In this document: positions 11,481 to 32,921 of the stretch, one piece after another
Numbering within the stretch: position 1 is the stretch's first letter
Layout: each line of letters opens with the position of its first letter
Translations under genes and position numbers: made by a program
Assembly: GCA_038363925.1 (NCBI GenBank)
Contig: JAQQWL010000006.1
Coordinates: forward strand, 2,832,501 to 2,896,500
Length of the DNA: 64,000 nt
Source: Apiospora phragmitis
Lineage: Eukaryota > Ascomycota > Sordariomycetes > Amphisphaeriales > Apiosporaceae
Reading direction: 5' to 3'
Notes under the pieces: model-generated
The model's database searches: none
What the model was told of the DNA's origin: nothing
Seen by the model: only the letters and a program-made list of their open reading frames with translations

Positions 11481-11562
11481 GGGGATGTGGTCTAGTGGTA
11501 TGACGTTTCCTTAGCATTAAACTGCATGGAAAAGGTTCTGGGTTCGATTCCCAGCCTCTCCA
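11481..11562 (+). tRNA. tRNA-Ala (AGC) with a 10-nt intron
   Basis: The cloverleaf can be drawn directly. Acceptor strand GGGGATG pairs with CCTCTCC with one T-C mismatch. D stem GTC pairs with GAC. Anticodon stem TTTCC pairs with GGAAA, and T stem CTGGG pairs with CCCAG around the loop TTCGATT, with discriminator A at 11562. The anticodon stem encloses 17 nt. Removing ten bases (11517-11526) at the standard site after position 37 leaves TTAGCAT, giving anticodon AGC. The third base pair is G3-U70, the classic alanine identity element. Box A (TGGTCTAGTGG) and box B (GGTTCGATTCC) are canonical. Confidence 0.93.
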
Positions 11563-27782: not shown

Positions 27783-30235
27783 TTATACCAAGTCCGACAG
27801 AATCTTCTCCTCCTTGAGCTGCTGCGCCTTCTCGTAAGAATCCCAAGGAGTCAAGGTACCAAGTGCTCGCTTCATCTCGGTGTTGACGAACCCAAGGCCG
27901 TAGACGTAGCTGGCGTTAACCCATCCAAATCTGACAATAGTTAGTTGGTAACAGTAAATCGACAAAATGACAAGGATTATACATACCCTTCCTTGGCAAC
28001 GCCCTTGAAATCCGATCCTTGGTTACCATACTCGGCATCAACCCTGTGGGGATCAACCGGGCGGGTCACGTCGTATTTCTCGACGACCACGCCGTTGAAG
28101 TCGAAGAAAGCCTTGGTGACCATGAATAGCCATCGGTATGCCAATCGCTGAGCAAGATCTTGGTAGCCGTACCGATAGAGGCCAGTCCAAGCTAGCATCT
28201 GCTGCGGCGCCCAGCCATAGGGGTAATCCCACTGTCGGTTGGGCCTTTCCAAACTGACAGCGCCTCGAGACTCTTCTGTACCCGAAAGAAGACCACCATA
28301 GGCTTCAAACTTGGGTACAGCATTCTTCACCACCTTAGCAGCCCTGTCAGGGTCGGGCACACCCGCCCAGAGAGGCCAGAATGTTGTGCAAGTCTCGTAT
28401 GTGCACTGCTCCTGCTTGTGCGTGTCGTAATCGAAGTACATGCCCTTCTCATTGTTCCACAGATACTTGTGAATGGCAGCACGGCGTCTCTTCCATCTAC
28501 GATCCCAGGTCGCCGATGTCTCGATTTGGCCAGGCTTCATTGGTCCATCGCACCACTCGGCTGGGATTTCAAGTTTGTCCCCAAAGACTTGGCGGATGAT
28601 GCGAGCGATATCCATCTCGTACTTGTAGATCAACGAGTTCAAGTCAACCGTGGCAAGGTCTGCGCACACGCGCTCGAGACGGTAAGATGTATCGTGACCA
28701 GACTCCCGAACCGCTCGATCATGGAGGAAGTAATCGTCAAGTTCCGGCTCTGAGACTTCCTGATGATTGTAGGCTCGGACGAACTCCTTGAACGACATAC
28801 CGTGCTTCTTTGCATATGGTTCCAGGATATGAACGAAATGAGAAGCCTCGGTTTCCGGGAGGGACACCACGACCCTCAGGGCGATATCGTGACAGGCCAG
28901 TCTTGGGGTCCAACCGCGGTTCCGACATCCAAACGCAATAGTATTCCTTGATTGCAGCCAAGAAAGCAGTACGGAGAAACTCCATGGCGCCGGGTTCGTG
29001 TTTGATCTTCTCATAGACCCGAAGAGTCATGTCGGTCAGGAAAGGAGGCTGAGAGCGACAGAGATAATACGATCGAGTCGCATTAAGGATCTTGCCATAG
29101 TGCCGAATGCAGAAACAAAAGTTCTGGACCATGGACTTGGCAAGATGTACCTTGTCGTTGACCAGCAAACCAAGAGACTCCATGTAGCTGTCCCAGCCGT
29201 ACAGCTCGTTGAAGCGACCTCCGGGGACGACGAAGGGGAGACCGCGCAAGGTCTTCTCCCCAGTCTTGGGGTCGACGTAGTCTTCCATGGCTACTGCGAG
29301 CAGACCAGGTTTGTCATTCATGTGCACCACCATCTCAGGCGTGATCTTCGCTGGGAGCTCGACGACATCCAACCGCATCTCGGGGCGGTCACGTGCCACC
29401 TTTTGGTAGAACTCCAATTGCGCGGGGGCTCCTGGTGGGACGTAGATTCTTGGGCGAGGGTCGTCTGTCCAATCTTTGGGATCCTTGGCAGCGATCTCAA
29501 CGGTAGATGCATCGATTCGGCGAGTCAAGCGCTCCCAGAACTGATCCTTGATGAGGCGTGAAAGTCGGTTCACAGGGTTCTCGTTCAGTCTTCCGATATC
29601 GAGAATGACCTGTTTGCGTCCGAACTCCTTGGCCATATATAGCTCTTGCAAAAGGTTCGAGAGCATGTAGGTGCCCCGGATATCAAACCGATTGTGTCCT
29701 CCCGAAGCTGCTGTTCGCAGCGAAATAACCTTCGGGCCGGAGTCTTCGATTGTGATTTGCATGTTATTGTCGGTATCCTCCTGAGCCTGTAAACTCTCGA
29801 GGGTATGGTCGACATCGACTAGGAAATTGACGCTGGTGCGGCCGGCTAGACTCATCTAAAAAATTGCGAGTAAGTAACACGGCTATTTTGCTTGGGAATG
29901 GGAAACAAATGTCTCGTACCGTGGCTACCTCGTCGGTGAGGCTCTACCAAGCCTAAGCGTTCCATCTGCTGCTCCAAGCCATTCTGGTTGCCAGTCAGCT
30001 ACAGTGCCTCCACATTGCAGGCCAACCGCCGCGGAGTAAGACTTACTTGAGAGTATGTGCGAGCTCTCGCATGGTGGCGGCCGGAATCGCGTGCTTCAGT
30101 GGAGTAGTATGTTTTGGCATCTTCGTAAACAGAAGCTTCGTCAATAGAGCTGAAGCTGCCGTCCTGTCGGCGCTGTCGAATAGGTGGTGCCGCCGGAAGG
30201 GGCATCAGCAAATCGTCTTTCGTAGGAGGCGCCAT
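27783..30235 (-). CDS. nth1: Neutral trehalase (GH37), one frameshift and one unresolved 5' splice junction
   Basis: Minus strand: exon 1 30235-30047, exon 2 from 29983 to about 29920, exon 3 29855-27987, exon 4 27930-27783 (GTATGT donor, GTCAG acceptor). Cytosolic neutral trehalase hydrolyses trehalose to two glucose during recovery from stress and spore germination. Supporting motifs are the calcium-binding [50 protein letters not shown] and a [15 protein letters not shown] end. Exon 2 encodes HRRGSH, a likely PKA site of the kind that activates neutral trehalases. The frame breaks at about 28854-28863: GVPP is followed in the next frame by ETEASHF, consistent with one extra base in CTCCCGG. 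Both good donors of exon 2 leave phase 1 while exon 3 (ATGAGTCTAGCC) needs phase 0, so that junction also hides an indel or a weak donor (GTAGAG at 29947). Confidence 0.85.
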
Positions 30236-32764: not shown

Positions 32765-32770
32765 AAAAAA
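32765..32770 (-). terminator. Pol III terminator of tRNA-Arg
   Basis: Six consecutive T on the minus strand begin five bases after the discriminator base of the tRNA-Arg gene, followed by one G and three more T. This supports RNA polymerase III transcription of the interrupted tRNA. Confidence 0.85.
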
Positions 32771-32795
32771 TGAAGCGACCCAGACGGGATTCGAA

Positions 32796-32852
32796 CTGAA
32801 TGTGGGTGTTAGTATTTGGAGCAATTGAGCCAATTAGAATGGTGGAACATAC
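32796..32852 (-). other. 57-nt spliceosomal-type intron within the tRNA-Arg gene
   Basis: The 5' splice site is GTATGT at 32852-32847. The branch site TACTAAC lies about 13-19 bases before the 3' end, and the acceptor TTCAG ends at 32796. All three match fungal mRNA intron consensus and typical spacing. Removal restores the T stem-loop GCGGG-TTCGAAT-CCCGT exactly. No bulge-helix-bulge motif for the tRNA endonuclease is evident at its ends by eye. Confidence 0.8.
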
Positions 32853-32868
32853 CCCGCAATCTTCAGAG

Positions 32869-32885
32869 TGAAGGAAATCGGTGAA
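32869..32885 (-). other. 17-nt canonical tRNA intron (position 37/38)
   Basis: Lies between G37 and C38. It contains CCGA, complementary to the anticodon-loop TCGG, the anticodon-intron pairing usual for nuclear tRNA introns cut by the Sen endonuclease. Confidence 0.85.
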
Positions 32886-32921
32886 CCGAAATCTGACGCG
32901 ATACCATTTCGCCACCAGGCC

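Follow-up and report, generated by a model that had tools for sequence, protein, structure and literature searches.

The tRNA-Arg(TCG) gene on the minus strand of the analyzed window (64,000 nt, corresponding to C6:2832501-2896500 of the 52.67-Mb assembly of 19 contigs that was searched) carries two introns, one of which is probably an ordinary U2-type spliceosomal intron hosted by a Pol III tRNA gene, as one member of a small set. We consider that the gene would be transcribed through this insert, that the spliceosome would remove it while Sen would cut the conventional intron at 37/38, and that a normal tRNA-Arg(UCG) would result. Altogether, six interrupted tRNA genes, belonging to four isoacceptors and showing two insertion positions, were found in one genome. 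The positions of the inserts, their signals, the exact restoration of known tRNAs, the paralogues, the conservation and the parallel with a U6 gene can all be read directly in the DNA. The window gene is composed of the following elements:

32776..32921, minus strand: tRNA-Arg(TCG) gene with two introns, 146 nt (RF00005 30.4 bits; mature RNA equal to the C11 copy)
32886..32921, minus strand: exon 1, reaching to position 37, with the anticodon TCG inside (from the sequence)
32904..32914, minus strand: A box TGGCGAAATGG, intact (from the sequence; consensus from general knowledge)
32869..32885, minus strand: 17-nt intron at 37/38 of the canonical tRNA-endonuclease type (from copy comparison)
32853..32868, minus strand: exon 2, positions 38-53 (from copy comparison)
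32796..32852, minus strand: 57-nt GT-AG intron between 53 and 54 (from Rfam, copy comparison and genome pattern)
32847..32852, minus strand: donor GTATGT (from the sequence)
32808..32814, minus strand: branch site TACTAAC, with 13 nt from the branch A to exon 3 (from the sequence)
32796..32800, minus strand: acceptor TTCAG (from the sequence)
32787..32797, minus strand: B box AGTTCGAATCC, contiguous in the DNA (from the sequence; consensus from general knowledge)
32776..32795, minus strand: exon 3, positions 54 to 73 (from copy comparison)
32765..32770, minus strand: T6 run, Pol III terminator, 5 nt past the gene end (from the sequence)

A preliminary description of this DNA had claimed the 17-nt intron at 37/38, a 57-nt insertion exactly at 53/54 with a GTATGT donor, a TACTAAC branch site and a TTCAG acceptor, and a T6 Pol III terminator following the gene, all of which we located at the coordinates listed above. 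RF00005 (gathering score 29) placed the extra length of the gene in two places only, the anticodon loop and the T loop, the latter being aligned with 64 nt, equal to 7+57. Removal of both introns yielded a 72-nt RNA with a complete cloverleaf, bearing out the earlier claim that excision restores the T stem-loop, and this spliced RNA is letter-for-letter identical to the uninterrupted Arg(TCG) copy on C11. The terminal AG of the 57-nt intron replaces positions 52-53 in the B box of the window gene, and the 17-nt intron contains a CCGA able to pair with the anticodon region. Judged by its sequence, the locus qualifies as a putative Pol III tRNA gene, as the A box, the B box and a T-run terminator are all present. 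The splicing signals exceed what chance would give, as gauged from the window itself, where a GTRWGT..RCTAAC..YAG arrangement of intron size starts at 7 of the 128,000 positions on both strands. Near the tRNA gene we noted seven stop-to-stop frames of 42-126 aa, the 126-aa frame lying on the minus strand and spanning the tRNA; an overlapping coding gene was set aside.

ARAGORN did not report the gene in its scan of the window, nor did it report either gene when run on cut-outs of both interrupted Arg loci (the C6 window and C1). A second tRNA of the window, located at 11481-11562 on the plus strand, scored 51.9 bits with Rfam and was assigned no amino acid by ARAGORN; it is apparently an Ala(AGC) tRNA with a short anticodon-loop intron.

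Using the spliced 72-nt Arg RNA as a query, we found three genes in the genome, the window gene on C6 and the following two:

C1:929255-929400, minus strand: Arg(TCG) copy with a 57-nt insert at 53/54
C11:7799950-7800038: Arg(TCG) copy with an uninterrupted T arm and the 37/38 intron present

The 53/54 insert is hence carried by two of the three Arg(TCG) copies found. The genes on C6, C1 and C11 give one and the same 72-nt RNA, so that reads of the mature tRNA cannot separate the copies. The 37/38 intron of the window gene is the same in C1 and shows one difference in C11. Between C6 and C1, 5 of the 57 intron sites differ, none of them in the donor, the branch site or the acceptor, compared with 0 of the 72 exon sites (Fisher p 0.015). 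Comparisons of the flanks yielded no similarity above the shuffled maximum; the approximately 20 nt directly upstream are alike in C6 and C1, with a score within that maximum. As far as the sequences tell, the C6/C1 pattern is what one expects for two working genes with an intron drifting outside its signals, and gene conversion could have contributed to the identity of the exons.

To find further cases, the whole genome was searched with patterns and reversed controls. The pattern GGGTRNGT-N20..50-YAGTTCRANNCC, which does not demand a branch site, gave four matches, all of them tRNA genes (two Arg, Pro(TGG) and Pro(AGG)) with a CTAAC before the acceptor, and none in the reversed control. A pattern with TACTAAC beside the T loop gave the two Arg genes only (reversed control 0), and a looser T-loop pattern gave 14 matches (control 27), four of which were the same two Arg, Pro(TGG) and Pro(AGG) tRNAs. 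The other ten were rejected as tRNAs by eye and with Rfam at E up to 1, a weak filter that missed the true Pro(AGG) gene. Allowing for introns further upstream (TACTAAC..YAG..GTTCRANNC) yielded nine matches (control 27), one of which (L104) has five of five T-stem pairs and none of which was recognized as a tRNA, and the 53/54 pattern with longer inserts yielded a single match that by eye is not a tRNA (control 3). The one match to the intron pattern in viral_contigs (L036) belongs to no Rfam family at gathering score and looks like chance. The 57-nt Arg intron itself, used as a query against the whole genome at E up to 10 with very common words skipped, was reported in two copies, both in the Arg genes. 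None of the six interrupted genes is among the 63 RF00005 matches listed for this genome, an incomplete list since the search scores the best candidates only. Eleven of these 63 listed matches are on contig C19 (224.6 kb), which is presumably an unusually large mitochondrial genome.

The two proline genes recovered by the T-loop patterns are:

C6:2113750-2113880: Pro(TGG) gene with an insert at 53/54 (RF00005 32.5 bits)
C11:5946715-5946856: Pro(AGG) gene with an insert at 53/54 (pattern match; no Rfam match)

Of six Pro(AGG) copies found, this one is interrupted at 53/54, and its spliced RNA equals all five uninterrupted Pro(AGG) genes found over 72 nt. With Rfam, the interrupted gene gave no tRNA match at either threshold used (E up to 1 and E up to 10). 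For Pro(TGG) the single copy found is the one interrupted at 53/54, and its acceptor stem contains two U-U mismatches. No second copy appeared at the sensitivity of the genome search, and since that search left the Pro(CGG) genes unreported too, a diverged intact Pro(TGG) gene could exist.

Other tRNAs able to read CCG were sought with a pattern requiring just a CGG anticodon and, 13-43 nt further on, a T arm, with no intron motif in the query. CCG is a common codon, with 27 occurrences among the 100 proline codons counted in two ORFs of the window. The pattern matched 31 times genome-wide (reversed control 35) and contained two tRNAs, the only two matches fully paired in both stems, the other 29 failing T-stem or anticodon-stem pairing. 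A Pro(CGG) gene escapes this pattern if its T arm holds an intron, if positions 52-53 carry other bases or if its 37/38 intron exceeds about 30 nt. The two genes are:

C13:1412594-1412741: Pro(CGG) gene with a D-loop insert and a 37/38 intron; T6 terminator
C15:522588-522743: Pro(CGG) gene with a D-loop insert and a 37/38 intron; first T4 run 37 nt downstream

Both of the Pro(CGG) genes found are interrupted in the D loop, immediately 3' of the A box, by inserts of 52 and 59 nt reading GTAAGT..GCTAAC..AG, besides 37/38 introns of 24-25 nt. The inserts differ in length and body, with GTAAGTTAC and ATGCAGCTAAC kept in both. Their acceptors, AAG and, in the C15 copy, GAG, are less usual than YAG. 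A single exon difference separates the pair, the C15 copy having a changed base at position 20, and no significant similarity extends into their flanks. From its sequence, the C15 gene may be in decay, in which case it could illustrate the loss of such introns. The A-box/donor junction of Pro(CGG) gave no matches in viral_contigs and genome_contigs, which are non-fungal collections and uninformative on relatives.

The existence of one Arg(TCG) and five Pro(AGG) genes without the insert means that the interrupted Arg and Pro(AGG) copies could be silent. An intact Arg(TCG) gene was one half of what the preliminary description had named as marking a decayed copy, and the C11 gene is such an intact gene; the description had further held that borders other than GT/AG would speak against the spliceosome, and GT-AG was found in six of six genes. 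According to the decay explanation, the inserts would sit in dispensable, unused tRNA genes, the exons being intact because of their youth or through gene conversion. We regard this as unlikely. Beyond the intact genes just named, it can draw on the two acceptor mismatches of Pro(TGG) and on the C15 Pro(CGG) gene without a near terminator, and either of these genes may be decaying, given the U-U pairs of the former and the distant T4 run and changed base 20 of the latter. However, the 72 exon bases are all unchanged in the two interrupted Arg copies, alongside the intron differences and dissimilar flanks described above, random inserts would not have GTRWGT, AG borders and a branch site in six of six genes, and both Pro(CGG) genes found carry the intron with no intact donor in sight within the reach of the pattern. 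A tRNA pseudogene is likewise at odds with the Arg genes on C6 and C1, which form a complete cloverleaf after intron removal with their identity kept.

Over the six genes the inserts are 52-59 nt long. The donors are GTATGT (two) and GTAAGT (four), all fitting GTRWGT, and each insert contains a branch site RCTAAC with 10-14 nt following the branch A. Every insert ends in AG, which is part of a YAG in four of the six, namely the 53/54 inserts including that of the window, all of which end in CAG. A suitably placed CTAAC arises in 4–9% of shuffles per intron. Excision restores a known RNA for Arg and Pro(AGG), equal to the intact copies, whereas Pro(TGG) and Pro(CGG) have no intact copy for comparison. 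The Arg copies are a related pair, as are the Pro(CGG) copies, so that the members of each pair are not independent cases. For fungal introns, passages of PMC5832005 give GTRWGT, RCTRAY, a branch-acceptor distance of 6-36 nt and YAG.

Among 22 other tRNA genes, most of which have anticodon-loop inserts, 21 lack a GTRNGT..CTRAY..YAG arrangement. The exception (L049) is a 130-nt tRNA-like gene on the minus strand at C4:2638372-2638501, with 58 nt of the form GTAAGT...CTAAT...CAATAG between positions 33 and 34. After joining, the anticodon reads TTC, and the rest of the molecule most resembles Arg(TCT) (L069). The stretch might mark a third site of insertion, or it might be a long 37/38 intron read wrongly; Rfam takes it for a 37/38 intron.

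All six inserts lie at 53/54 or in the D loop, not at the Sen-typical 37/38. We compared these sites with the A-box and B-box consensus sequences. At the 53/54 site the last AG of the intron stands before TTCGA, so that AGTTCGANNCC is contiguous in the DNA, and at the D-loop site the intron begins after the last base of TGGTCTAGTGG. Of the two insertion points, one borders the A box on its 3' side and the other borders the B box on its 5' side, and neither box is broken. Based on these positions, the tolerated insertion sites would be those leaving both Pol III boxes whole.

Sites other than 37/38 are also known for ectopic introns that the tRNA-splicing endonuclease cuts at a bulge-helix-bulge, as in Cyanidioschyzon and Archaea. 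In C. merolae, according to passages of PMC3978253, tRNA genes can hold one or several introns, 11-69 bp in length and variously placed, which resemble the inserts reported here in their sites other than 37/38 and in the presence of more than one per gene. Those introns, however, form a bulge-helix-bulge, are cut by the endonuclease and often break the A and B boxes according to the same passages (PMC3978253), whereas the inserts here keep the boxes and carry spliceosomal signals. The central helix of the motif in its strict 4-bp form is absent in all six genes (1, 1, 1, 1, 2 and 2 of 4 pairs; strict form only), the mRNA-intron signals present in six of six would be superfluous for that enzyme, and the 37/38 introns of the interrupted genes do not start with GT. 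Cutting of the inserts by the endonuclease thus appears hardly credible.

A different origin is offered by introners, mobile intron-like elements with splice signals, which would have inserted recently, the tRNA location being incidental. Introner-like elements are known in other fungi, and the introns of three isoacceptors share one position, which would fit such an origin. We nevertheless rate it as very improbable, considering that the genome query with the 57-nt intron at E up to 10 reported no copies beyond the two Arg genes and that the Arg, Pro(TGG), Pro(AGG) and Pro(CGG) introns are by eye alike in their signals only. As this explanation concerns origin, it is compatible with spliceosomal removal.

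The spliceosomal-type reading put forward in the preliminary description is strengthened by the second Arg gene, the three further proline isoacceptors and a U6 intron in the same genome. Two U6-like genes lie above the gathering score:

C8:277890-278049: U6 snRNA gene with a 61-nt intron GTAAGT..TACTAAC..CACAG between ACAGAGAAGAT and TAGCATGG
C9:3094216-3094328: U6-like gene without an intron

The intron of the C8 gene adjoins the ACAGAGA region. U6 being a Pol III RNA as well, the mRNA-type intron of the C8 gene makes it plausible that the spliceosome has access to Pol III transcripts in this species.

Tani and Ohshima in 1989 and Canzler et al. in 2016 reportedly described mRNA-type introns in U6 snRNA genes, and Rogers et al. 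in 1993 are said to have described them in fungal nuclear rRNA genes (18S). Like the U6 introns, one of which is found in this genome, the inserts are spliceosomal-type introns in a short structured Pol III RNA. U6, however, is part of the spliceosome, whereas the tRNA host has internal promoter boxes, mostly contains a further intron destined for a different enzyme, and yields an RNA that serves outside the nucleus. The fungal 18S rRNA introns are also of the mRNA type and placed in a structural RNA gene, but in a Pol I transcript, compared with a Pol III tRNA here. Fungal U3 snoRNA introns share GTRWGT, RCTRAC, YAG and a short branch-acceptor distance in the passages of PMC5832005 and differ in the host RNA. 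According to the same passages, frequent interruption by an intron was known up to 2017 for no small structured RNAs other than U3 and U6 (PMC5832005). Spliceosomal-type introns in tRNA genes are unreported as far as we searched, which would make tRNA a new host among structured RNA genes: the literature matches listed, consisting of titles and abstract starts with thin coverage of subscription papers and preprints, contained no report of spliceosomal introns in nuclear tRNA genes, and an earlier report is possible.

For the favored reading of a spliceosomal intron in a Pol III tRNA gene, we infer transcription, spliceosomal removal, the order of the steps and the function of the product as follows. 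With the A and B boxes contiguous in the DNA, Pol III would read through the 57-nt insert from intact internal boxes. The spliceosome would assemble on the near-consensus sites across the short intron and remove it while the RNA is still nuclear and its end processing and export, which require the T arm, are not yet complete. The tRNA endonuclease Sen would take out the 37/38 intron separately, and the end product would be a normal tRNA-Arg(UCG). As both Pro(CGG) genes and the sole Pro(TGG) gene found are interrupted, reading of CCG could depend on mRNA splicing. It is a tentative proposal, about which we are somewhat more doubtful than confident, that the spliceosome is in this way a required tRNA-maturation enzyme and that the pre-tRNAs of Arg(UCG), Pro(AGG) and Pro(CGG) are each cut by two unrelated machines per transcript.

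Textbook accounts assign tRNA introns to a protein endonuclease and mRNA introns to the spliceosome, whose recognition of introns they link to Pol II. Should these six genes indeed be spliced, precursors of Pol III tRNAs would count among the substrates of the spliceosome, the supply of tRNA would be tied to splicing capacity, and introns would be gained at sites set by promoter boxes. Standard tRNA finders miss such genes, as seen with ARAGORN for both interrupted Arg genes and with Rfam for the interrupted Pro(AGG) gene, and tRNA annotations of filamentous fungi could hide further cases.

A protein-coding intron of the same make as the tRNA inserts is present in the neutral trehalase gene of the window, where homology to protein supports an intron of 56 nt with GTATGT..AACTAAC..CAG. 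The trehalase gene also shifts frame at window positions 28836-28858 on the minus strand; the homologous parts overlap there and leave no space for an intron, and the change is either an assembly indel or a true frameshift. Furthermore, over 98% of its length, an MYG1-like protein encoded in the window matches a protein of Apiospora arundinis with 93% identity and one of A. marii with 91%.
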